The notes beneath the pieces are model-generated. The model was not told the origin of the DNA. It saw only the letters and a program-made list of their open reading frames with translations, and ran no database searches. A stretch of 64,000 nucleotides of DNA from Rhizobium binae (lineage in GTDB: Bacteria > Pseudomonadota > Alphaproteobacteria > Rhizobiales > Rhizobiaceae): the NCBI RefSeq assembly GCF_017357225.1, contig NZ_CP071604.1, positions 4,266,001 through 4,330,000 of the forward strand, read 5' to 3'. Below, piece after piece: positions 11,004-43,784 of the stretch. The position numbers were made by a program, and so were the translations under genes. Positions within the stretch are counted from its first letter, which is position 1. Every line of letters begins with the position of its first letter.

Positions 11004-11855
11004 GTGACGAATATTCAAGATATTTTCAAGAAGTCCAATGTTGCCGTCATCACCGGCGGCGCTTCCGGCATCGGACTTGCGGCGGCGAAGTATTTTGCCG
11101 GACGCGGCATGAGCGTCGTCATCGCCGATCTCGGCGGTGATCGGCTGGCCAACGCCGCCGAGGAGCTCAAAGCCATTGCCGGCGAAGAGGATGTGATGGC
11201 AGTTGAGACCGACGTCGCCAGCCGCGACTCCCTGGAGGCGCTCGAACGCGCCGTACTCCAGCGTTTCGGCCGCGTGCACGTGCTGATGAACAATGCCGGC
11301 ATCGGCCCGGAAACCTCGATCTTCAGTTCGCAGTCAAATTGGGACCATATCTTCGCCGTCAACCTGATGGGCGTGGTCAACGGCACGCGCGTCTTCGGGC
11401 CGAAGATGCTGTCCCACGGCGAGCCCGGCCTGATCATCAATACCGGCTCCAAGCAGGGCATCACCACGCCGCCGGGCAACCCCGCCTACAACATCTCCAA
11501 GGCTGGCGTGAAAGTCTTTACCGAAGCGCTCGAACACGAACTGCGCAACACCGCGGGTTCAAAGATCTCGGCGCATCTGCTGATCCCCGGCTTCGTCTTC
11601 ACCGGCCTCACCAAGGGCGACCGGGCGGAAAAGCCAGCCGGCGCCTGGACACCGGAACAGACGGTCGATTTCATGGTCGAAAGCCTGGAACGCGGCGATT
11701 TCTATATCCTCTGCCCCGACAACGACGTGACCCGCGCGGTCGATGAACGCCGCATGGCTTGGGCCGCCGGCGATATCATCGAGAACCGCCCGCCGCTGTC
11801 GCGCTGGCACAAGGATTACGCCGACAAGTTCAAGGCCTTCCTCGAAGAGAAGTAA
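11004..11855 (+). CDS. Short-chain dehydrogenase/reductase (SDR)
   Basis: A 283-residue NAD(P)-dependent oxidoreductase with a Rossmann fold. The cofactor motif TGGASGIG is at residues 17-24, the NNAG motif follows at about residue 96, a Ser in 'NTGSKQG' and the catalytic Y-x3-K ('PAYNISK') near residue 161 complete the active site. Translation starts at GTG 11004, preceded by a strong AGGAGG. The C-terminal part (residues 230-283) is longer than in minimal SDRs and carries '[23 protein letters not shown]'. The substrate is unknown. It is transcribed alone, divergently from argG. Confidence 0.9.
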
Positions 11856-11875
11856 TTGGTGCCACTGCATTTCAC

Positions 11876-11930
11876 CCGGAAGCGTGCAGCGGTCCCGGGA
11901 TAACGACATGCACAAAACAAACAGCGAATG
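11876..11930. repeat. Degenerate RIME-like repeat fragment
   Basis: The text CCCGGAAGCGTGCAGCGG followed by TCCCGGGATAACGACATGCACAAAAC matches the block order of the dispersed element at 5721 (palindrome with GTGCAGC in the loop, then ATAACGACAT and an A-rich stretch), but the arms are short (CCCGG/CCGGG). Probably an eroded copy downstream of the SDR gene. Confidence 0.5.
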
Positions 11931-12039
11931 CGCGCCGCATGAATCAAGTTTAGTGCGACGCGCATGAGAAGGTTTGATTGGTAATTTTCTGAAGGCTGGA
12001 TAAGTAGTCACCTTGACTGTCCAGCTTTCCGAGCGTGCT

Positions 12040-12681
12040 ATGGATTTCCTGCCGAACCTGCCGACCCTTCTCGCCTTTGCCGCCGCGACGCTGCTGCTCG
12101 CGGCGACCCCAGGTCCCGATATGACGCTGTCGATCAGCCGTTCACTCGCCCAGGGCAAGAAGGCGGCCCTTTTCGTCGTCGTCGGCACCAGCCTCGGCAT
12201 CGTCGTCCACACCATGCTGGTCGCTTTCGGCATCTCGGCGCTGATCACTGCCTCGCCGACCGCCTTCCTGATCCTGAAGACCGGCGGCGCCGGCTATCTG
12301 CTCTGGCTCGCCGTGCAGGCTATCCGCTTTGGCTCGAAGCTGACCGTCGCCAAGGTCGAGGAGCAGAAGGGCACCGCCCTTTCGAACATCTCGTCGGGCT
12401 TCTGGGTCAACCTTCTGAACCCGAAGGTCATCATCTTCTTCATGACGTTCCTGCCGCAATTCGTCAGCGCCGGCGATCCCGCCGTCACTCAGAAGCTGCT
12501 GTTCCTCGGGCTTTGCTTCATCCTGATCGGCATGCCGATCAATGTCGCGGTGGTCCTTGCCGCCGACTGGCTGGCTTCCTGGCTGCAGAACAACAGCAAG
12601 GTGCTGCGCGGCATGGACTATACTTTCGCCGGCGTCTTCTCGATCTTCGCCGCGAAGATCCTGCTCACCCAGGCTCGATAG
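12040..12681 (+). CDS. LysE/RhtB family translocator
   Basis: An inner-membrane exporter of 213 residues. The motif 'ATPGPDMTLSISRSLAQGKKAA' (P-G-P-D after helix 1), 'GGAGYLLWLAVQA' and 'GFWVNLLNPKVIIFFMTFLPQFV' (N-P-K) are the signature blocks of the RhtB/LysE family. I use ATG 12040 (MDFLPNLPTLLAF), which places helix 1 correctly; an in-frame TTG at 12013 is the alternative and neither has a strong ribosome-binding site. It differs from the LysE paralogue at 4971. It converges on the ABC importer genes; an inverted repeat lies between them. Confidence 0.88.
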   Translation: MDFLPNLPTLLAFAAATLLLAATPGPDMTLSISRSLAQGKKAALFVVVGTSLGIVVHTMLVAFGISALITASPTAFLILKTGGAGYLLWLAVQAIRFGSKLTVAKVEEQKGTALSNISSGFWVNLLNPKVIIFFMTFLPQFVSAGDPAVTQKLLFLGLCFILIGMPINVAVVLAADWLASWLQNNSKVLRGMDYTFAGVFSIFAAKILLTQAR

Positions 12682-34948: not shown

Positions 34949-35112
34949 GTTTCTCCCTACGAATATACGATCTAGCTGTCGATTACGCCCGCCGAGGGCG
35001 ATGCCTCCAACTCCCGCGCCTCCAGTGATCATTGATCCGGCTCCACGGACCGGTCGCACGCCATTCACCGCGATCGATCTTTTCGCGATGGTTCATATCA
35101 AAACCTCTGCTT

Positions 35113-35144
35113 AGACATCAGAATATTGATTTCAGACATCAATA
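35113..35144. promoter_or_regulatory. Phased direct repeats upstream of the XRE-regulator/hyf operon
   Basis: AGACATCA occurs at 35113-35120 and 35134-35141, each followed by an A/T-rich AATA-like tail (AGACATCAGAATA and AGACATCAATA). The period of 21 bp is two helical turns, and the second copy ends 9 bases before the ATG at 35153. This is a plausible autoregulatory operator of the XRE protein, but unproven. Confidence 0.4.
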
Positions 35145-35152
35145 GGCACATC

Positions 35153-35515
35153 ATGGACCTCAACTGTCAGAGTGTGCGCAAGATAAGCGATGCTTTAATC
35201 GTGATCACTGCAGCTCAGATGCGGGCCGCCAGGGCCATTCTCGGTATCGACCAGCGGCAGTTGGCCGAACTGACAGGAATTTCGGTTCCGACGATCCAGA
35301 GAATGGAGGCGAGTGCCGATGTGGTGCGCGGGAATGTCGACACCCTGATGCGTCTGCTGGCGGCGCTGGACAGTGCAGGTGTCGAGGTGATCAACGAGGG
35401 AGCCGTTAGCACGGATGGCGGGCGCGGGGTCAGGCTCAAAGCGAAGACCAAGCCCTCAGAGAGCGCAACCACGGAACGGTCGGCGTCCTTGTCCACAGCG
35501 AGGACGAACTCGTGA
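35153..35515 (+). CDS. XRE-family (HTH_3) transcriptional regulator
   Basis: A 120-residue putative repressor. The Cro/CI helix-turn-helix is 'ITAAQMRAARAILGIDQRQLAELTGISVPTIQRMEASADVVRGNVDTLMRLLAALDSAGVEVINEGAV' spanning about residues 17-85; the second part is a basic, Ser/Thr-rich tail. The start ATG 35153 (MDLNCQSVRK) is preferred over a TTG nine codons earlier. Its stop overlaps the GTG of hyfB (35512), so it is cotranscribed and translationally coupled with the hyf genes, which suggests that it controls them. Phased repeats lie just upstream. Confidence 0.85.
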   Translation: MDLNCQSVRKISDALIVITAAQMRAARAILGIDQRQLAELTGISVPTIQRMEASADVVRGNVDTLMRLLAALDSAGVEVINEGAVSTDGGRGVRLKAKTKPSESATTERSASLSTARTNS

Positions 35516-37533
35516 CATCGGTTTCAGTCCTATTGTTATGCGCGGCGGCATTGCTTGGGACGGCGGTTTTGGCGGTAGTGCTCACTCATTCGAGCCGGTC
35601 GACGCCAGTTGTCTACGGTGTGAGCCTGGCTTTCTCCGCCATCGCCTTTGTCACTGCCCTCGCATATCTTGTCGGAGAGCCTCCTTCCGCCGAAGCATCG
35701 TTGCTTGCCCTTCCTATCGGCCTTCCATGGCTGGGAAGCCATTTCCGGCTCGACGCGCTCGCTGCCTTCTTCATAGTCGTCGTCAATCTCGGCAGTACCC
35801 TTTCAGCTCTCTACGCCCTTGGTTACGGCCGTCACGAACATGCGCGGCATCGCGTGCTGCCGTTCTTTCCCGCCTTCCTCTCCGGCATGAACCTGGTGAT
35901 CCTGGCGGACGATGCCTTCACCTTCCTCATCTCCTGGGAGTTCATGTCGCTTGCTTCCTGGGCACTGGTGATGGCCCACCACCGCGATGCCGATAACCGG
36001 AAGGCCGGCTACGTCTACATCGTCATGGCGAGCACCGGCTCGCTTGCCCTGTTGCTCGCATTCGGCCTCCTCGCAGGATTTGCCGGCGATTATAGCTTCG
36101 CAGCCATGCGGTTGTCGGCGCACAGTCCGTTCATGGCCGGCCTTACGCTTGTCCTGCTGCTGCTCGGCGCCGGTTCCAAGGCTGGTCTCGTGCCGTTGCA
36201 TGTCTGGTTGCCGCTGGCGCATCCTGCAGCCCCAAGCCATGTTTCCGCCTTGATGAGCGGCGTCATGACCAAGGTCGCGGTCTATGGTTTCATCCGGGTG
36301 GTCTTCGATCTGCTCGGCATGCCGACCTGGTGGTCGGGTATCGTCGTGCTGATTATCGGCAGCGGGAGCGCCGTGCTCGGCATCCTGCAGGCGCTGATGG
36401 AGAGCGATCTGAAACGGTTGCTCGCCTACAGCACTATCGAAAATATCGGGATGATCTTCGTCAGCCTCGGGCTGGCGCTTGCCTTTAAGGCGAATGGTAT
36501 GGAGCTGGCGGCAGCATTGGCGCTGACTGCCGCGCTATTTCATGTCCTCAACCATTCATTCTTCAAGAGCTTGCTCTTCTTCGGCGCCGGCGCGGTGCTG
36601 ACGGCGACGGGTGAGCGGAACATAGACAAGCTCGGCGGCCTCATCCATCGCATGCCAGTCACGAGCGTCGTTTTCCTCGTCGGCTGCGTCGCGATCTCGG
36701 CCCTGCCGCCATTCAATGGCTTTGTTTCCGAGTGGCTGGCGTTCCAGGCTATGCTGCAGAGCCCGATTCTGCCGCAATGGGGCTTGAAGATTCTGGTGCC
36801 GGCGGTGGGCGGCATGCTGGCTTTATCAGCTGCCCTGGCGGCAGCCTGTTTCGTCAAGACATTCGGTGTGACCTTTCTCGGTCGTCCTCGCACCATTGTG
36901 GCCGAGAAGGCCGTGGAGGTCGATCGCTTCTCGCTCGCGGCGATGTGCGTGCTGGCCGCGCTGTGTCTTCTGGCGGGCATCCTGCCGGGGATTGTCATCG
37001 ACGCGCTCGCGCCCGTAACGCTGTCGCTGATCGGGGAACAGATGCCGGTGCAGACGGATATTCCATGGCTGTCGATCATGCCGATCGCCGAAAGCCGCAG
37101 TACCTATAATGGTCTGCTGGTATTCCTGTTCACCCTCTTCTCAGCGTCGTCGACGGCCTATCTCATCCACCGTTTCGCCTCGCGGGCGCTGCGCCGGGCG
37201 CCCGCCTGGGATTGCGGCTTTCCCGAAATCAACCCGGCGACGCAATACACGGCAGGCAGCTTCGCCCAGCCGGTTCGGCGCGTTTTCGGGACGGTGGTTT
37301 TCCGCGCCCGCGAAAGGGTGGACATGCCGCCGCCGGGGGATCTTCGGCCGGCGCGTTTTGCCGTCGAGGCGCGTGATCTGATTTGGGAGGGACTCTACCA
37401 GCCGATCGTCGGCGTCGTCGGGTTCACCGCCGAAAAGCTCAACCATCTGCAATTCCTGACGATCCGGCGCTATCTAAGCCTGGTCTTCCTCGCGCTCGTC
37501 TTCCTGCTTCTGGTGCTGGCGCTATGGTCGTGA
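35512..37533 (+). CDS. hyfB: Hydrogenase-4-like antiporter subunit HyfB
   Basis: A 673-residue proton-pumping membrane subunit of the NuoL/MrpA family, about 15-16 helices. The TM5 glutamate is in 'FLISWEFMSLASWALVMAH', the TM7 lysine is in 'GAGSKAGLVPLHVWLPLAHPAAPSHVSALMSG', and 'YSTIENIGMIFVSLG' is the broken-helix lysine/histidine channel region. These residues are the ones that drive ion pumping in complex I. It begins at GTG 35512, overlapping the XRE stop by 4 bases. The C-terminal 100 residues resemble the HyfB/HycC extension. First membrane gene of hyfB-C-E-F-G-I. Confidence 0.93.
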   Translation: MTSVSVLLLCAAALLGTAVLAVVLTHSSRSTPVVYGVSLAFSAIAFVTALAYLVGEPPSAEASLLALPIGLPWLGSHFRLDALAAFFIVVVNLGSTLSALYALGYGRHEHARHRVLPFFPAFLSGMNLVILADDAFTFLISWEFMSLASWALVMAHHRDADNRKAGYVYIVMASTGSLALLLAFGLLAGFAGDYSFAAMRLSAHSPFMAGLTLVLLLLGAGSKAGLVPLHVWLPLAHPAAPSHVSALMSGVMTKVAVYGFIRVVFDLLGMPTWWSGIVVLIIGSGSAVLGILQALMESDLKRLLAYSTIENIGMIFVSLGLALAFKANGMELAAALALTAALFHVLNHSFFKSLLFFGAGAVLTATGERNIDKLGGLIHRMPVTSVVFLVGCVAISALPPFNGFVSEWLAFQAMLQSPILPQWGLKILVPAVGGMLALSAALAAACFVKTFGVTFLGRPRTIVAEKAVEVDRFSLAAMCVLAALCLLAGILPGIVIDALAPVTLSLIGEQMPVQTDIPWLSIMPIAESRSTYNGLLVFLFTLFSASSTAYLIHRFASRALRRAPAWDCGFPEINPATQYTAGSFAQPVRRVFGTVVFRARERVDMPPPGDLRPARFAVEARDLIWEGLYQPIVGVVGFTAEKLNHLQFLTIRRYLSLVFLALVFLLLVLALWS

Positions 37534-38480
37534 TCTCCGCTCTCCTCGTCCAGGCCGTTCAGATGGCGCTCGTCGTGCTGATCGCGCCACTGCTGACCGG
37601 TTTCATCCGTCTGATCAAGGCGAGGTTGCTGCGCCGGCGAGGGCCTTCCATGATCCAGCCATACCGCGACATTCTGCGGCTCGTGCGCAAGGAAGTGGTG
37701 CTGGCCGAGAATGCCTCATGGCTGTTCCGGGTGACGCCCTATCTCATCTTCGCCGCGACTTGGGTCGCGGCGGCAATCATCCCGACTTTCGCCACTGGCC
37801 TCATCTTTAGCTGGACGGCGGATCTGATCGCCATCATCGCACTGCTTGGCAGTGCGCGTTTCTTTCTGGCGCTCGCCGGCATGGACGTCGGCACCAGCTT
37901 CGGCGGCATCGGATCGAGCCGCGAAGTGATGATCGCAACGCTGGCAGAACCGTCGATGCTGCTCATCATCTTCACGCTCGCCCTGATCGCCGGTTCGACC
38001 CAGCTTTCGAGCATCGCCGCCTTCATGACGTCACCGCAGGTGGGGCTGCGCGTTTCGCTGGCGATCGCCTTGATCGCGCTCGTCATGGTCGCAATCGCCG
38101 AAAACGCACGTATTCCCGTTGATAATCCCGCAACTCATCTGGAACTGACCATGGTGCACGAGGCCATGGTGCTCGAATATTCCGGACGGCACCTCGCAAT
38201 CATCGAACTGGCGGCCTTTCTGAAGCTCGAGCTCTACATCTCGTTGATCGCCTGCATGTTCGTTCCGTGGAAACTCGCCGGATTGGGAGAAGGCCCTTCT
38301 GCCTATCTGGCGGGCATGCTTGCCTATCTCGCCAAGCTCGCAGTCGGCGGTGCTCTCCTCGCCCTGTTCGAAACGGCAACCGCCAAGATGCGGGTTTTCC
38401 GGGTGCCGGAGTTTCTTGGCGCCGCGCTGATGCTTGGCCTGCTCGCGACTCTGCTGCGCTTCGTTTCGAGGAGCCTTTGA
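37524..38480 (+). CDS. hyfC: Membrane subunit HyfC (NuoH/HycD-like)
   Basis: A 318-residue protein with eight hydrophobic segments, the counterpart of NuoH/HycD, which connects the hydrophilic arm to the ion-pumping arm. 'MIQPYRDILRLVRKEVVLAENASWLFRVTPY' (residues 36-66) and 'AIAENARIPVDNPATHLELTMVHEAMVLEYSGRHLAIIELAAFLK' (residues 191-235) hold the conserved charged residues of the proton-loop. The start is ATG 37524 (MVVISALLVQ), which overlaps hyfB by 10 bases. A longer in-frame reading begins inside hyfB and is not used. It ends in an ATGA overlap with hyfE. Confidence 0.93.
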   Translation: MVVISALLVQAVQMALVVLIAPLLTGFIRLIKARLLRRRGPSMIQPYRDILRLVRKEVVLAENASWLFRVTPYLIFAATWVAAAIIPTFATGLIFSWTADLIAIIALLGSARFFLALAGMDVGTSFGGIGSSREVMIATLAEPSMLLIIFTLALIAGSTQLSSIAAFMTSPQVGLRVSLAIALIALVMVAIAENARIPVDNPATHLELTMVHEAMVLEYSGRHLAIIELAAFLKLELYISLIACMFVPWKLAGLGEGPSAYLAGMLAYLAKLAVGGALLALFETATAKMRVFRVPEFLGAALMLGLLATLLRFVSRSL

Positions 38481-39145
38481 TGAACGGTGCGGTCTTCGAC
38501 ATCGCCCATATGCTCGCCGGCGGTCTGGTCTTGGTCAGCATGATGATGCTCTATCAGGACCGTCTCTACGCATTGCTCAACGTCTTCGCGCTGCATTCGC
38601 TGATATTGACCCTGTCGGTCGCCTGGCAGGCCTTCGTCCAGGATGCTCCGCATCTCTATGTCACTGCGGCGATCGCTCTCGTCTTCAAAGCCATCATTAT
38701 CCCCGTCGTACTTCATCGCATGATCCGCCAACTCGGCATCCACCGTGAGATCGAAACCGTTGTCGGCATCGGCCCCACCATGCTCGCCGGCATCGGCCTC
38801 GTCGCTTTGGCGACGGTGGTAATGCTGCGGGTGACGCCGGAGGCGGATCCTCTGGCGCGCGAGGACCTCGCATTCGCATTGTCCGTCCTGCTGCTGGGAC
38901 TGCTGATCATGGTCACGCGCCGCAACGCGGTCAGTCAGGTCGTGGGCTTCATGTCGCTCGAAAACGGGCTGGTGCTCGCCGCGACCGGCGCCAAGGGCAT
39001 GCCGCTCGTCGTCGAGATCAGCGTCGCCTTCTCGATCCTGATCGCCTTCATCGTCATCGGCGTTTTTCTGTTTCGCATCCGCGAACGCTTCGACACGGTC
39101 GATGTCCGCGCGCTGGATGACTTTAAAGGGAGACGGCGGAAATGA
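38480..39145 (+). CDS. hyfE: Membrane subunit HyfE (NuoK-containing)
   Basis: A 221-residue membrane protein with about seven helices. The C-terminal half resembles NuoK/MrpC ('LLGLLIMVTRRNAVSQVVGFMSLENGLVLAATGAKGMPLVVEISVAFSILIAFIVIGVFLFRIRERFDTVD'), with the 'SLENG' glutamate that lies in the complex I proton path. The N-terminal half is an extra membrane domain as in HyfE. The start is ATG 38480, overlapping the hyfC stop (tga at 38478-38480). It overlaps hyfF by 4 bases (ATGA at 39142). Confidence 0.92.
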   Translation: MNGAVFDIAHMLAGGLVLVSMMMLYQDRLYALLNVFALHSLILTLSVAWQAFVQDAPHLYVTAAIALVFKAIIIPVVLHRMIRQLGIHREIETVVGIGPTMLAGIGLVALATVVMLRVTPEADPLAREDLAFALSVLLLGLLIMVTRRNAVSQVVGFMSLENGLVLAATGAKGMPLVVEISVAFSILIAFIVIGVFLFRIRERFDTVDVRALDDFKGRRRK

Positions 39146-40605
39146 ATGCGTTCTCCTCCGTCGTGGCCTTTGATGCCGTGACAGCCGTCCTTGTGATTCC
39201 GCTCGCTGCGGCTGCTCTCCTGGCGCTTTTGCCCGGTTATCGGATGACGGCACGGCTGAACGTATTTGCAAGCCTGCTGACCTTGCTCGCCGCGCTTTCC
39301 TTGTTCCTGACCACGCGGCCGGCACCGGGGCAATATCTCCTCGTCGACGATCTCAATATCGTCTTCATCGTCCTCAACAGCTTCGTGGGCTTTACCACCA
39401 GCATGTTCAGTGCCAGCTACATCGCGCATGAACTGGATATCGGCCGGCTGACACCTGCAAACCTTCGTTTCTACCATGCCATGTATCAGATCATGATGTT
39501 CGGCATGAATCTGGCATTCGTGTCGAACAATATCGGCCTGATGTGGGTCGCCGTCGAGCTTGCAACGCTCGCCACCGTGCTGATGGTCGGCATCTACCGT
39601 ACCCACGAAGCACTGGAAGCTGCCTGGAAATATTTCATTCTGGGAAGCGTCGGCATCGCGTTTGCGCTCTTCGGCACCATTCTCATCTACCTGGCGGCGC
39701 AGCCGGTCGTCGGCGAAGGGTATGACGCCATGGTCTGGACCATTCTGATCGATCACGCCTCGGCCTTCGATCCGGCGATTCTCAACGTCGCTTTCGTCTT
39801 TCTGCTGCTTGGCTATGGCACCAAGATCGGTCTCGCGCCATTGCATGCCTGGCTGCCCGACGCCCATGCCGAAGGCCCGACGCCGATCTCGGCGGTCCTG
39901 TCCGGCTTGCTCCTGAATGTCGCGCTCTATGCGGTCTTGCGCTTCAAGATGCTGTTGTCGGCCAATCCCGAAGCTCTTGCGCCTGGACCGCTGATGATGA
40001 CGATGGGGCTTGCCTCGCTGATTTTCGCAGCCTTCATGCTCTATCGTCGCCGCGACATCAAACGCCTGTTCGCCTATTCTTCGATCGAGCACATGGGCAT
40101 TATCGTCTTTGCTTTCGGCCTCGGCGGACCATTCGCCAATTTCGCCGGACTATTGCATATGGTCATGCATTCGCTGACGAAATCGGCGATCTTCTTCGCC
40201 GTCGGCCATATTGCTCAGGTCAAGGGAACGCAAAGGCTCTCCGCTATCCGCGGCCTCAGCGAAACGCATCCCGGGCTGGGCTGGGGCTTGCTGACCGGCG
40301 TTGTCGCCATCGCCGGCGTGCCGCCGGCGGGGATATTCATGAGCGAGTTCCTGATCGTCAGTTCAGCTTTCGCAAAGCAACCGCTGCTCGCCATTCCGCT
40401 CGTCTTCGGATTGCTGGTCGCTTTCGGTGCACTGCTGCTGCGGCTCACGGGAGCGGTGTTCGGACAGCCCCGCGGCAGCACGGCGCCCGCCGAGGCATCC
40501 TATGTGCCGATGTATGCTCATCTCGTGCTGGTGCTGGTCGCCGGCGTCTATCTGCCGTCAGAGCTGGTTGCCTGGTTCCAGCATATCGCCAACCTTCTTC
40601 GATGA
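39142..40605 (+). CDS. hyfF: Hydrogenase-4-like antiporter subunit HyfF
   Basis: A 487-residue second NuoL/M/N-like subunit of the same complex, about 14 helices. It contains 'MWVAVELATLATVLMVGIYR' (TM5 glutamate), 'GYGTKIGLAPLHAWLPDAHAEGPTPISAVLSGLLLNVALYAVLRF' (TM7 lysine and conserved P-T-P-x-S loop) and 'LFAYSSIEHMGIIVFAFG' (TM12 region). Together with HyfB it provides two ion channels. It starts at ATG 39142, overlapping hyfE, and its stop overlaps the start of hyfG (40602). Confidence 0.94.
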   Translation: MNAFSSVVAFDAVTAVLVIPLAAAALLALLPGYRMTARLNVFASLLTLLAALSLFLTTRPAPGQYLLVDDLNIVFIVLNSFVGFTTSMFSASYIAHELDIGRLTPANLRFYHAMYQIMMFGMNLAFVSNNIGLMWVAVELATLATVLMVGIYRTHEALEAAWKYFILGSVGIAFALFGTILIYLAAQPVVGEGYDAMVWTILIDHASAFDPAILNVAFVFLLLGYGTKIGLAPLHAWLPDAHAEGPTPISAVLSGLLLNVALYAVLRFKMLLSANPEALAPGPLMMTMGLASLIFAAFMLYRRRDIKRLFAYSSIEHMGIIVFAFGLGGPFANFAGLLHMVMHSLTKSAIFFAVGHIAQVKGTQRLSAIRGLSETHPGLGWGLLTGVVAIAGVPPAGIFMSEFLIVSSAFAKQPLLAIPLVFGLLVAFGALLLRLTGAVFGQPRGSTAPAEASYVPMYAHLVLVLVAGVYLPSELVAWFQHIANLLR

Positions 40606-42134
40606 TGCGAGGGGAGATGTCGACGCTCAGTGATATCCTCAAGAAAGGTCGTTCCGTTCCGCACCACGCTCCGTGGCAGCGCGCCATCGTCGATGCGGCC
40701 ACATGGACATTGGCCATATCGGCGCTATCCGAAGGGCGCCTGATCCTGCTCGGCCTATGGGGCGAGGCGAGTGCCGTTCATATGGCCTTACTCGACGAAC
40801 CGACCCGCGCGATCGGAGTCCTCAGTCTGGAAGAGCAGGAGGAGGGCGGATATCCTTCCGTCGCGCAATTGCATCCGCCGGCGTTGCGGCTGGAGCGGGC
40901 GCTCCGCGACCTCACGGGGCTTGAACCGCAGGATTTGCCGGATGGCCGGCCGTGGCTCGATCACGGCCGCTGGGATCTGCGCCATCCTCTCGGAGAGCGC
41001 GGGGTTGCGTTGCCGGAAGTCGGGCCTTATGCCTTTTTGCCCGCCGAAGGTGATAGTCTGCACCAGATCGCGGTTGGCCCGGTGCACGCCGGCATCATCG
41101 AGCCGGGACATTTCCGCTTTGCAGCCAATGGCGAGACGGTCGTCCGCCTTGAGGAGCGACTCGGCTATGTCCACAAGGGGATAGAGGCGCTGATGGCAGG
41201 CGCGGATCTGATCCGCGGAGCCCAGCTCGCCGGGAGAGTCTCCGGCGACAGCACCGTCGCATACGCCTATGCTTTTTCGCGGGCCGTCGAGGCCGCGTTA
41301 GGGATTGATGTTCCGCCTCGGGCAATCTGGTTGCGCGCCCTGATGGCGGAATTGGAAAGGCTCGCCAACCATCTCGGCGACATCGGCGCCATCTGCAACG
41401 ACGCCGCGTTTCCACTGATGCTGGCTCATTGCGGCGTGCTGCGCGAGCGTGTGTTGCGGGCAGCCGATGCCGCCTTCGGTCACCGCCTGATGCGCGACCG
41501 TATCGTGCCCGGCGGCGTCACCAGCGATCTGAATGGCGACGGGGCGGCCGGCTTGCGAAGCCTTCTTCTCGAAATCCGCCGTCAGTTTCCGGCCCTGGTC
41601 GAGCTCTACGACAACACTGCCTCCTTGCAGGACCGGACGGTCGGCACAGGTAGGCTGCGCGCCGAATTGGCACGCGCGTACGGGGCAGGCGGCTACGTCG
41701 GGCGCGCATCCGGGCGCGGTTTCGATACCCGGCAGGCCCTGCGCTTTCCGCCGTATGATCATTTGGTCTTCGACGTTCCGGTGCTTAACGACGGCGATGT
41801 CAACGCCCGCGTCTGGATCCGTATTCGGGAGGTCGAGGAGAGCCTGTTGCTCATCGAGCAGATTCTCGATCGTCTCCCGATCGGATCTGTCCTCAAAGCA
41901 ATCCCTTCCGTCGGTGAACGTCGGGAAGGCATGGCGCTTGTCGAGGGTTTTCGTGGTGACGTGCTGGTCTGGCTTCGGCTTGCACCGGAGGGTGTCGTCG
42001 AACGCTGCCATCTACGCGATCCATCCTGGTTTCAGTGGCCGCTGATCGAGGCAGCGATCGAAGGCAATATCGTTGCCGATTTCCCGCTCTGCAACAAGTC
42101 GTTCAATTGTTCCTATTCTGGTCATGATCTTTGA
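40602..42134 (+). CDS. hyfG: Hydrogenase-4-like large subunit HyfG, without NiFe-binding cysteines
   Basis: A 510-residue NuoCD/HycE-type large subunit. Residues about 40-130 look NuoC-like ('YPSVAQLHPPALRLERALRDLTGLEPQDLPDG') and residues 155-510 are NuoD/hydrogenase-like, with 'RLGYVHKGIEALMAGADLIRGAQLAGRV' and 'MAELERLANHLGDIGA'. In HycE the NiFe site is held by R-V-C-G-I-C and D-P-C-Y-S-C; here the first reads R212-V-S-G-D-S and the second N502-C-S-Y-S-G, so S214, S217, S504 and G507 take the place of all four cysteines. The protein therefore cannot bind the NiFe centre as known hydrogenases do; compare the Ehr complexes. It starts at ATG 40602 and is followed, 12 bases on, by hyfI. Confidence 0.9.
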   Translation: MMRGEMSTLSDILKKGRSVPHHAPWQRAIVDAATWTLAISALSEGRLILLGLWGEASAVHMALLDEPTRAIGVLSLEEQEEGGYPSVAQLHPPALRLERALRDLTGLEPQDLPDGRPWLDHGRWDLRHPLGERGVALPEVGPYAFLPAEGDSLHQIAVGPVHAGIIEPGHFRFAANGETVVRLEERLGYVHKGIEALMAGADLIRGAQLAGRVSGDSTVAYAYAFSRAVEAALGIDVPPRAIWLRALMAELERLANHLGDIGAICNDAAFPLMLAHCGVLRERVLRAADAAFGHRLMRDRIVPGGVTSDLNGDGAAGLRSLLLEIRRQFPALVELYDNTASLQDRTVGTGRLRAELARAYGAGGYVGRASGRGFDTRQALRFPPYDHLVFDVPVLNDGDVNARVWIRIREVEESLLLIEQILDRLPIGSVLKAIPSVGERREGMALVEGFRGDVLVWLRLAPEGVVERCHLRDPSWFQWPLIEAAIEGNIVADFPLCNKSFNCSYSGHDL

Positions 42135-42146
42135 AGGCAGGCTCGC

Positions 42147-42680
42147 ATGCGAAAACTCCTCTTCGAAAACCTGATCCGCCTGCCGCTGACGGAACCGGCG
42201 CCATCCCCCTCCGATGCGGCAATGGAAGAGCTCATCGCCGCTATCGACAAAACCGCTCGCCGGCGCCTTGGGCGCAGCCTGTCAATCCGCGCAGTCGATG
42301 CCGGTTCCTGTAACGGCTGCGAGTTGGAGATGCACGCGCTGAGCAATGCCTTCTACGATATAGAGCGTTTCGGCATGCGTTTCGTTGCCTCGCCGCGCCA
42401 TGCCGACGTGCTGCTCGTAACTGGTCCCGTAACCAAGAACATGCGCGAAGCGCTGGAACGGACAAACAACGCCACACCGGCTCCAAAGTGGGTGGTTGCG
42501 CTCGGTGGTTGCGCCCGCGACGGTGGCTGTTTTGCGGGCAGTTATGCGGTTGTCGGCGGGGTCTCCAAGGTCATACCCGTCGACCTGCATATTCCAGGTT
42601 GCCCGCCGTCGCCGACGGACATCCTCCGAGGTCTTCTTTCTTTACTTGAATACGTGGACACAGGAGGCCGCGCTTCGTGA
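42147..42680 (+). CDS. hyfI: Hydrogenase-4-like small subunit HyfI (NuoB-like)
   Basis: A 177-residue Fe-S protein, partner of HyfG. The proximal [4Fe-4S] cluster ligands are visible: 'SCNGCELEM' (C55, C58), 'GGCARDGGCF' (C122, C128) and 'HIPGCPPSPTD' (C152), in the hydrogenase (CxxC) rather than the NuoB (tandem CC) arrangement. The cluster site is thus intact even though the large subunit lacks the NiFe site. It starts at ATG 42147, 12 bases after hyfG, and is the last recognisable hyf gene; no HyfH/HyfA ferredoxin is present in the operon. Confidence 0.93.
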   Translation: MRKLLFENLIRLPLTEPAPSPSDAAMEELIAAIDKTARRRLGRSLSIRAVDAGSCNGCELEMHALSNAFYDIERFGMRFVASPRHADVLLVTGPVTKNMREALERTNNATPAPKWVVALGGCARDGGCFAGSYAVVGGVSKVIPVDLHIPGCPPSPTDILRGLLSLLEYVDTGGRAS

Positions 42681-42839
42681 CGGCGAGCTTCAATGGTTCG
42701 ACTTCTCCAGGCTGGACTTGTTGCAATAAGGATGCTGATCACGGCGGCACTCACCCTTCTCGCTGCCGTCCGGCGTAGGGCCTTTCCGCCGGAGCCGCCA
42801 CGGCGACGGTTACAATCTCGAAAGCCGGACATCCATCAA

Positions 42840-43736
42840 ATGGATCCGTCCACACGCATTGGCATTGACCTGGTCGAGAAGGTTTTCATCCGGGATTTCG
42901 GATGGTCTTTCCGCAGGCAGACGGATTCGAACATCGGTATCGACGCTCGCGCTGAAATCCTCGAAAACGGTTGGCCAACGGGCCGGCTTCTGCCGCTGCA
43001 GATCCGGCCGATATCCTGCGTGGAGAGAACCGAAGGCCATTACATCTATCGCGGCGAAAAACACCATCTGGACTGTTGGGCGAGGTATTCGCTACCCATT
43101 TGCGTCATCATCGTTGACACCGAAACCGGACTGATATCGTGGCAGCGAATAGAGAAGCAGCTATGTGAGGAAGTGAGGATGGAATGGTCTATTGCCATCC
43201 CAGCAACCAACTTACTCGACGCCACCGCCAGGCTCTGTTTCGAGGAGGCGATACCGACCGATCCGGAATCCCTGATGCGCTCGGCCTTTGCGCTCGATCT
43301 CGTTTTGATGGAGCAAATACAAGACCAGACAACCTTTTTCGTATGGGACGAGTGGGGCGATACAACCGCGATCTTTGGCAATCTGCGCATCTACATCGGT
43401 GAAGGCCAGGAGGCAGAGCCGGATGTGCAGATCGATTATCGGCTCCGAGCTCAAAATCTCCACGACGTCATGGTCAGGCTTTTCCCTTGGGCGAGCTATT
43501 CGTATGCTGAGCCTATTTCGGAATATTCCGGTGAGGTTGCCGTTCATACTCTCGAAGTCGCACTGCGGCCCGAAGCGCGTGCCTATCTCGAGGCCGAGAA
43601 TTTTCTGGTTGCAGGCTATCCCGAGGATGAGGCGCCATCGGCCCCGGAACCTGAGGACTTCATCACGGAAGAAGAGGAAAGTGAGTTTTGGCGCAGCCGG
43701 GGAACACCTCACGATCCTCGCGATCGGCAGGATTAG
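42840..43736 (+). CDS. DUF4365 domain protein
   Basis: A 298-residue cytoplasmic protein with an N-terminal DUF4365 domain: 'STRIGIDLVEKVFIRDFGWSFRRQTDSNIGIDARAEILENGWPTGRLLPLQIRPISC' and 'YIYRGEKHHLDCWARYSLPICVIIVDTETGLISWQRI' cover residues 3-110. DUF4365 is related to PD-(D/E)xK nuclease folds; the usual Q-I-K motif reads Q-I-R here, so the catalytic lysine may be replaced. The rest (120-298) is acidic and unassigned. The start ATG 42840 agrees with the domain start, but the ribosome-binding site is weak; ATG 42732, giving a hydrophobic N-terminus, is an alternative. It lies 159 bases downstream of hyfI on the same strand, with no clear terminator between. Confidence 0.7.
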   Translation: MDPSTRIGIDLVEKVFIRDFGWSFRRQTDSNIGIDARAEILENGWPTGRLLPLQIRPISCVERTEGHYIYRGEKHHLDCWARYSLPICVIIVDTETGLISWQRIEKQLCEEVRMEWSIAIPATNLLDATARLCFEEAIPTDPESLMRSAFALDLVLMEQIQDQTTFFVWDEWGDTTAIFGNLRIYIGEGQEAEPDVQIDYRLRAQNLHDVMVRLFPWASYSYAEPISEYSGEVAVHTLEVALRPEARAYLEAENFLVAGYPEDEAPSAPEPEDFITEEEESEFWRSRGTPHDPRDRQD

Positions 43737-43784
43737 GAGCAGCGGGAGGGATTGGGGTGGGATTGGGGAGGGATCTTCTAAACC

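Follow-up and report, generated by a model that had tools for sequence, protein, structure and literature searches.

Hyq of Rhizobium binae, a probable redox-driven ion pump with a conserved pocket in place of the NiFe site

The Hyq complex of Rhizobium binae is very unlikely to be a NiFe hydrogenase; on sequence evidence it is likely to be a redox-driven ion pump. Its genes lie in the window examined in this study (a stretch of 64,000 nt, GCF_017357225.1, NZ_CP071604.1 positions 4,266,001-4,330,000), where six intact and nearly contiguous open reading frames occupy positions 35512-42680 of the + strand. This operon, which a first-pass annotation had named hyfB-C-E-F-G-I, is identified as hyqBCEFGI, known from Azorhizobium caulinodans, by its gene order, its motifs and what has been published on the operon of that species. 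The explanation preferred here as a whole, with somewhat better than even confidence, is that Hyq belongs to the Ehr type, is related to group 4 hydrogenases and complex I, and pumps ions at the expense of a redox reaction at a conserved site. That the large subunit lacks both CxxC motifs was already pointed out by the A. caulinodans authors in 2012 (PMC2650096, PMC2930871, PMC3357923); what is new here is the conservation of the HyqG pocket and the distribution of hyq relative to nifD and hypD. The genes of the operon are:

35512..37533, + strand: hyqB (hyfB), antiporter-like subunit (NF005086, 893 bits, over the cut-off)
37524..38480, + strand: hyqC (hyfC), NuoH-like membrane anchor (PF00146)
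38480..39145, + strand: hyqE (hyfE), HyfE-like membrane subunit (NF008556, 93.7 bits, under the cut-off of 136)
39142..40605, + strand: hyqF (hyfF), antiporter-like subunit (NF005043, 905 bits, over the cut-off)
40602..42134, + strand: hyqG (hyfG), fused NuoC/NuoD-like large subunit without NiFe cysteines (PF00346, alignments)
42147..42680, + strand: hyqI (hyfI), NuoB-like subunit, [4Fe-4S] ligands of the hydrogenase type (PF01058, alignment)

Neighbouring genes from hyqB to hyqG share 1 to 10 bases and 12 bases separate hyqG from hyqI, in keeping with the tightly overlapping operon described at first pass; another possible start of hyqG is the ATG at 40617. The gene order, without hyfA and hyfD, is the one that the published definition of Hyq requires. 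The earlier observation that the operon has no HyfA- or HyfH-like gene held for all open reading frames and Pfam matches of the unit, and none was recognised among the families recurring around hyq, as delimited by simple gene calls and clustering only. HyqE is 30% identical to HyfE in the alignment. Compared to E. coli hydrogenase-3 and -4 (Hyc, Hyf), the subunits are homologous and HyqI shares the hydrogenase-type cluster motif, whereas the hyq unit lacks the NiFe cysteines, counterparts of HyfA, HyfD, HyfH and HyfJ, and the C-terminal tail of the large subunit.

When HyqG is aligned with HycE, HyfG and HyaB of E. coli, S214, S217, S504 and G507 fall at the NiFe cysteine positions, which confirms that all four cysteines have been replaced. 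The relevant features of HyqG, all located by alignment, are:

41235..41252, + strand: R212-V-S-G-D-S217, where RxCGxC stands in hydrogenases
42090..42122, + strand: C497-NKSFNCSYS-G507, where DPCxxC stands in hydrogenases
41100..41102, + strand: E167, opposite the Glu that transfers protons in NiFe hydrogenases (MbhL E21, HyaB E28), in 101 of 101 loci
41952..41954, + strand: R451, opposite HyaB R509, in 101 of 101 loci

A conserved Ser/Asp/Asn/Cys pocket replaces the four NiFe thiolates in these alignments, and HyqG retains both the proton-transfer Glu and the counterpart of HyaB R509, an active-site Arg of NiFe hydrogenases. Across the 101 hyq loci (99 distinct HyqG sequences), E167, R212, G215, D216, C265, R451, N498-N502, S504, Y505 and G507 are invariant, and the same residues are intact in all 19 surveyed carriers without nifD and hypD, two of which are already among the 101. 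To judge from this conservation, the pseudo-site shows no decay. HyqG shares 30-32% identity with HyfG and HycE, and a PDB fold search with its AlphaFold model, which ranked HycE first and NuoCD next, confirms the fold only; the mean pLDDT of the model is 76 and drops below 50 at residues 134-192 and 486-510, stretches that would make up much of the cavity.

The C-terminal tail of the hydrogenase large subunit is cleaved on maturation. HyqG ends 3 residues past G507, while HycE and HyfG extend more than 30 residues further in the alignment. The absence of hyp maturation genes, expected at first pass, was borne out for HypD, the one checked as a proxy for hypABCDEF: it is missing from the window's genome (0/1; E. 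coli control positive). The sole PF00374 match in this genome is HyqG itself, so there is no other NiFe large subunit. Judged as a group 4 [NiFe] hydrogenase, Hyq thus lacks the four NiFe cysteines and, by the HypD proxy, the maturation system. Because cysteine ligands, HypD, C-terminal tail and any other NiFe large subunit are all missing, a NiFe hydrogenase is very unlikely here, and the earlier conclusion that the complex is very unlikely to be a hydrogenase stands for this type.

The survey drew 397 genomes from the order, of which 52 have hyqG and 345 do not; 25 of the carriers have no nifD, 22 no hypD and 19 neither gene. It is conceivable that HyqG still binds NiFe through other cysteines, given that C265, C497 and C503 are highly conserved. 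These residues most likely correspond to the conserved Cys-258, 491 and 497 of A. caulinodans (spacing 233 and 6 there, 232 and 6 here), and three conserved cysteines together with the absence of both CxxC motifs characterise Hyq as published. A few relatives have lost C497 or C503. Leu replaces C497 in 2 of the 19 carriers without nifD and hypD and in 1 of the 101 loci, C503 is Gly in 2 of the 101 sequences, and HypD was found neither in the 22 carriers mentioned above nor in the window's genome, all of which makes NiFe binding of this kind extremely improbable.

Both antiporter-like subunits have the TM5 Glu and TM7 Lys attributed to them (E143 and K223 in HyqB, E139 and K228 in HyqF); H344 and E407 are also retained in HyqB (alignment with NuoL and HyfB), as are H317 and E402 in HyqF. 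The charged loop attributed to HyqC is only half as described: relative to the NuoH acids D213, E216, E218 and E220, D200 and E207 are present but the other two positions are A203 and H205, a pattern repeated in 6 of 6 other aligned Hyq sequences. All the cluster cysteines claimed for HyqI are there, in a CxxC motif (C55, C58) like that of hydrogenases rather than the CC of NuoB, and at C122 and C152; the four are present in 100 of 100 aligned sequences (alignment without locus L133). PMC6349859 describes Ehr complexes as group 4 relatives without Ni- and Fe-coordinating residues and with antiporter-like subunits. This description fits Hyq, with its large and small subunits without Ni/Fe ligands and its antiporter-like membrane subunits, and the missing ligands plus the conserved pump residues support the Ehr-like assignment made at first pass. 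The Ehr of that source is proposed to work with formate dehydrogenase, whereas simple gene calls and clustering revealed no formate-dehydrogenase-like family among those recurring beside hyq.

In the preferred explanation, HyqB, HyqF and HyqC would form a membrane ion pump, and HyqI would hold one [4Fe-4S] cluster with hydrogenase-type ligands, on which a small cytosolic carrier (ferredoxin or flavodoxin) may dock directly. Electrons would be exchanged between this carrier and a substrate in the HyqG cavity, the likeliest candidates being quinones and other small hydrophobic molecules. Protonation via E167 could couple electron transfer to ion pumping. In hyq carriers that fix N2, A. caulinodans among them, the electron flow may supply nitrogenase and H2 metabolism or be supplied by them. 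The hyq unit contains no carrier-docking subunit. A carrier-to-quinone reaction in particular is a tentative suggestion: the core subunits of complex I are homologous to those of Hyq, but the unit has no NADH module, and the quinone step is weakened by the replacement of the quinone headgroup ligands (T. thermophilus Nqo4 His38 and Tyr87 align with I166 and G215).

There are several potential alternatives to this pump. Hyq may have lost redox catalysis altogether; ion flow would then be coupled to some task in the HyqG cavity other than redox chemistry, or the complex would serve as an ion-transport module only. HyqI is the only electron-input subunit, and related membrane subunits are reported to serve elsewhere, for example in vectorial CO2 hydration (PMC13144422); however, the fully conserved cluster cysteines of HyqI and the invariant HyqG pocket favour retained redox chemistry, and this alternative is considered unlikely. 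Reduction of sulfane sulfur at the proximal cluster, as in MBS, is far less probable still. According to PMC7684303, MBS is likewise a group 4 descendant with an altered pocket, without part of the NiFe ligands and without the complex I quinone ligands, and HyqG has conserved cysteines near the site; however, that source also describes a shorter MbsJ motif that displaces one cluster ligand and a missing E21 equivalent, whereas the CxxC of HyqI is complete and HyqG retains the proton-transfer Glu.

The genetics of A. caulinodans, where hyqRBCEFGI was published in 2009-2012 as an "endo-hydrogenase" (PMC2650096, PMC2930871, PMC3357923), bear on hydrogen itself. Gene order, subunit set and the loss of both CxxC motifs are the same there as in the window, and the ortholog list in these papers includes R. 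leguminosarum bv. viciae. According to the same papers, deletion of hyq slowed diazotrophic growth, raised H2 release at 20 uM O2 and lowered it below 1 uM O2; nodules released 0.32 umol H2 per g and hour with a hup single mutant and 27 with a hup hyq double mutant; complete hup/hyp deletion strains retained H2 recycling; and Rhodocista centenaria has hyq without hup/hyp. The authors inferred a reversible H2:quinone reaction, and Hyq could accordingly be a genuine H2:quinone oxidoreductase with a way of activating H2 that needs no NiFe centre, a reading favoured by these phenotypes, by the retained Glu and Arg, by the enrichment of nif and hyp genes among carriers and by hup/hyp or hox/hyp clusters close to hyq in two genera. 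It is nevertheless held to be improbable, as Hyq has none of the ligand sets known to bind a metal centre for H2 activation, the deletion took out the regulator along with the whole operon, the authors had no cell-free assay at hand (PMC2650096, PMC2930871, PMC3357923), and 19 of the 52 carriers have neither nifD nor hypD, though outside H2 could still serve. About equally doubtful is a new type of catalytic site, in which the Ser/Asp/Asn/Cys pocket of a former hydrogenase cavity, with its Glu and Arg, would process H2, or catalyse an equivalent reaction of two electrons and two protons, in the absence of nickel and drive a proton pump in aerobic bacteria.

Compared to the other genomes of the draw, a higher proportion of hyqG carriers contain nifD (27/52 versus 43/345), which is present in the window's genome, and hypD (30/52 versus 67/345). 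In genus g99, all 12 carriers of the draw have the start of hyqG 7.6 to 8.2 kb from hypD; in one genus g69 genome that distance is 16 kb. CO dehydrogenase was rejected as a partner (CoxL in 9/52 carriers versus 50/345 others, p = 0.54), a null result which indicates that an arbitrarily chosen gene does not show the same enrichment as nif. Two genera hold nif and hyq in different genomes. Recycling of nitrogenase H2 is not the general role of Hyq, since the 19 carriers without nifD and hypD all have an intact pocket. The first-pass statement that the reaction is unknown was fair but missed the hyqBCEFGI identity and the A. caulinodans H2 genetics; the link to hydrogenase genes is statistical, and physical in two genera. 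These genetics, the nif and hyp enrichment, the closeness to hypD and the lack of a docking subunit count against the preferred pump explanation.

HyqG is variously named nickel-dependent hydrogenase, NADH-quinone oxidoreductase subunit C and hydrogenase expression protein HypE in sources, and the conserved pocket together with the distribution argues against all three names and makes a testable question of the name "endo-hydrogenase" used in the literature. The puzzle is a complex I relative without NiFe or quinone ligands that has a strictly conserved site, and its function would bear on how this enzyme family passed from hydrogen to quinone.

The A. caulinodans operon is NifA-dependent, whereas the region upstream of the window's operon, in a genome without HypD, yielded no sigma-54 site. 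Among 88 upstream regions of relatives, a relaxed sigma-54 pattern matched 2 (0.26 expected), none with a NifA box; it had been relaxed after inspection of the nifH promoter of the window's genome, which it then matched, so that nifH is not an independent control. The strict pattern matched 1 of the 88, and a scored pattern reached 11 or 12 matches in none of 90 regions and 10 matches in 3 (3.1 expected), both requiring GC at -12 and both missing that nifH promoter. NifA-box-like sites occurred in 8 of 88 regions, compared to 6.8 expected from shuffles. NifA/sigma-54 control as a general hyq feature was rejected, as none of the 88 regions combines a site with a NifA box; it belongs to the regulation described for A. 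caulinodans, not to the traits of the protein family. FNR/FixK-like sites were seen in 2 of 88 regions (L062, L069; 0.05 expected).

The neighbourhood of the operon contains the following features:

35126..35515, + strand: XRE-family helix-turn-helix (HTH) gene, first in the unit (Pfam HTH_3; start codon uncertain)
42693..43736, + strand: DUF4365 gene (PF14280, 61 bits)
34949..43784, no strand: extra segment (HTH gene, hyqBCEFGI, DUF4365) between ccmG and a septation-protein gene, ends approximate

Called genes from 94 sources (the window, 13 loci and 80 loci) were clustered in a search for a donor enzyme, and no linked one was found with this simple gene caller, small families not being profiled; the recurring families were the operon, the HTH gene, DUF4365, antisense frames and apparently generic families. 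The stop of the HTH gene overlaps the start of hyqB and, judged by position, this gene is a putative hyqR counterpart. An HTH homologue comes first in the gene order at 69 of 101 hyq loci, and lies at most 400 bases before hyqB in 58 of the 89 loci with upstream sequence, slightly overlapping hyqB in 9 more. The DUF4365 gene accompanies hyq in 12 of 101 loci overall and in 8 of 11 other carriers of the same genus. In non-carrier genomes of the genus, the ccmG and septation-protein flanks lie at most 0.7 kb apart (12/12).

The six genes hyqBCEFGI are intact on the + strand of the window (35512-42680), with gene ends overlapping from B through G, and profile searches assigned them to the same families as the first-pass annotation, which had described a tightly overlapping operon of hyf type. 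In the large subunit HyqG, the reported loss of both NiFe-binding cysteine pairs was confirmed by alignment with HycE (7z0s), where RVCGIC corresponds to RVSGDS and DPCYSC to NCSYSG; the same replacements appeared in a wider alignment adding E. coli HyfG, HyaB and NuoCD, and in a pairwise comparison with HyfG. HycE and HyfG continue for more than 30 residues past this point, while HyqG stops three residues after G507. The small subunit HyqI retains its [4Fe-4S] cysteines as described (C55-x-x-C58, C122 and C152), a pattern common to HycG and HyfI but not to NuoB, which has adjacent cysteines instead. Likewise, the antiporter-like subunits keep the TM5 Glu and TM7 Lys that had been noted, together with a later Glu (E143, K223 and E407 in HyqB; E139, K228 and E402 in HyqF). 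The charged loop attributed to HyqC is only partly preserved, with two of the four NuoH loop acids retained and the other two being Ala and His, as in all six other Hyq sequences aligned. The genome containing the window carries nifD on another contig; a search of this genome found no HypD, in line with the predicted absence of hyp maturation genes, and no PF00374 match besides HyqG. These observations, together with the replaced cysteines, uphold the earlier judgement that a NiFe hydrogenase is a very improbable identity for the Hyq family here. HyqG relatives (P0001-P0120) are variously named nickel-dependent hydrogenase, NADH-quinone oxidoreductase subunit C and hydrogenase expression protein HypE, none of which suits the HyqG sequence (40602-42134).

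The HyqG pocket is strongly conserved among the 101 hyq loci compared (the 80 closest matches listed from a named collection, 13 others, and 8 from further searches), which comprise 99 distinct HyqG sequences. Among the matches listed, E167, R212, G215, D216, H257, C265, R451, N498, K499, S500, F501, N502, S504, Y505 and G507 are identical in all 101 loci, while S214 (100), S217 (98), C497 (100), C503 (99) and S506 (93) are less than invariant. In the alignments, E167 lies opposite MbhL E21 and HyaB E28, and R451 opposite HyaB R509; in NiFe hydrogenases, HyaB E28 is the proton-transfer Glu and HyaB R509 an active-site Arg. At the positions of the quinone-binding His and Tyr of Thermus thermophilus complex I, HyqG has I166 and G215. 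A 2012 paper calls certain HyqG cysteines completely conserved (PMC3357923); given the counts for C497 and C503, only C265 of these is completely conserved among the matches listed here.

Searches for HyqG, NifD and HypD were run separately on 397 genomes of the order (at least 90% complete). The listings do not name every negative genome; that all three cover one and the same set is deduced from their matching totals and common identifiers. HyqG was found in 52 genomes (E 1e-100 or better), NifD in 69 that passed the cut-off and in one more where it is divided between two contigs, and HypD in 97. With phylogeny ignored, both NifD (27/52 hyqG carriers versus 43/345 others; odds ratio 7.6, p 7e-10) and HypD (30/52 versus 67/345; odds ratio 5.7, p 3e-8) were associated with hyqG, while the control CoxL was not (9/52 versus 50/345, p 0.54). 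The nif association was also seen at genus level (13/22 genera with hyq versus 15/115 others, p 1e-5). The match in one carrier scored without nifD (G315) resembles nifE, so carriers without nifD may number 24 rather than 25. Neither nifD nor hypD was found in 19 of the 52 carriers, some of them incomplete drafts, spread over 11 of the 22 carrier genera. The HyqG pocket is maintained in these genomes: all invariant residues are present in 19/19, with C497 replaced by Leu in two (two of the 19 sequences were already counted among the 101 loci).

In some genomes hyq lies close to hydrogenase genes, which is evidence in favour of a link with hydrogen. The hypD start is 7.6 to 8.2 kb from hyqG in 12/12 carriers of genus g99 in the draw; called genes in one of these, G336, run hypB-F-C-D-E, then hyqBCEFGI. 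Of four g99 genomes checked, three (G336, G224 and G385) encode a NiFe large subunit on the hypD contig, roughly 10 kb away from that gene; in the fourth (G244) the large subunits are on other contigs. A hox-like hydrogenase and hyp cluster adjoins hyq in G375 (genus g69). Genes in the G336 and G375 clusters were named by reading their sequences; family matches back the names hypD and large subunit. By the listed positions, hyq and hyp are close in 2 of the draw's 13 genera having a genome with both hyqG and hypD; short contigs could hide more. Loci L130 and L132 show these arrangements, hyq behind a hyp cluster (g99) and beside a hox/hyp cluster (one g69 genome). According to PMC2930871, the hyq and hup/hyp gene sets are unlinked in its authors' genomes.

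In Azorhizobium caulinodans the hyq operon likewise runs B-C-E-F-G-I and lacks A, D and H. Its authors report that after deletion of the operon growth on N2 is roughly a fifth slower and that H2 release rises at 20 uM O2 and falls below 1 uM O2 (PMC2650096, PMC2930871, PMC3357923), that its expression needs NifA (PMC2650096), and that in nodules much H2 is released only by the hup hyq double mutant (PMC2930871). A literature search, with most subscription journals outside its coverage, found no further hyq publications, including from 2012 on; three other papers are listed as using the term endo-hydrogenase, a single time each. Since a NiFe hydrogenase is very unlikely, these H2 phenotypes must reflect either a nickel-free reaction or an indirect effect on electron flow, of which the indirect effect is favoured. 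The shared Hyq function would be a carrier-linked, ion-pumping redox reaction, of which we infer the substrate step.

Comparison with same-genus non-carriers shows an additional segment in the window, with approximate ends:
34949-43784, extra hyq segment between ccmG and the septation-protein gene
42693-43736, DUF4365 gene, 12 bases behind hyqI
These flanks are at most 0.7 kb apart in 12/12 non-carriers, drawn from 48 known non-carrier genomes of the genus, compared to 8.8 kb in the window, occupied by the HTH gene, hyqBCEFGI and the DUF4365 gene. Within 20 kb around hyq, none of the 11 other same-genus carriers has these flanks, and hyq sits elsewhere in all 11; in R. johnstonii 3841 the operon is on plasmid pRL11. 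The DUF4365 gene accompanies hyq in 8 of these 11 carriers and, among the matches listed, in 12/101 loci overall. Near hyq, 9/94 sources share a gene family whose products are some 254 residues long (for example at 11535-12299 of locus L034), and FNR/FixK-like boxes lie upstream of the operon in 2/88 regions (L062 and L069) versus 0.05 expected from shuffles.
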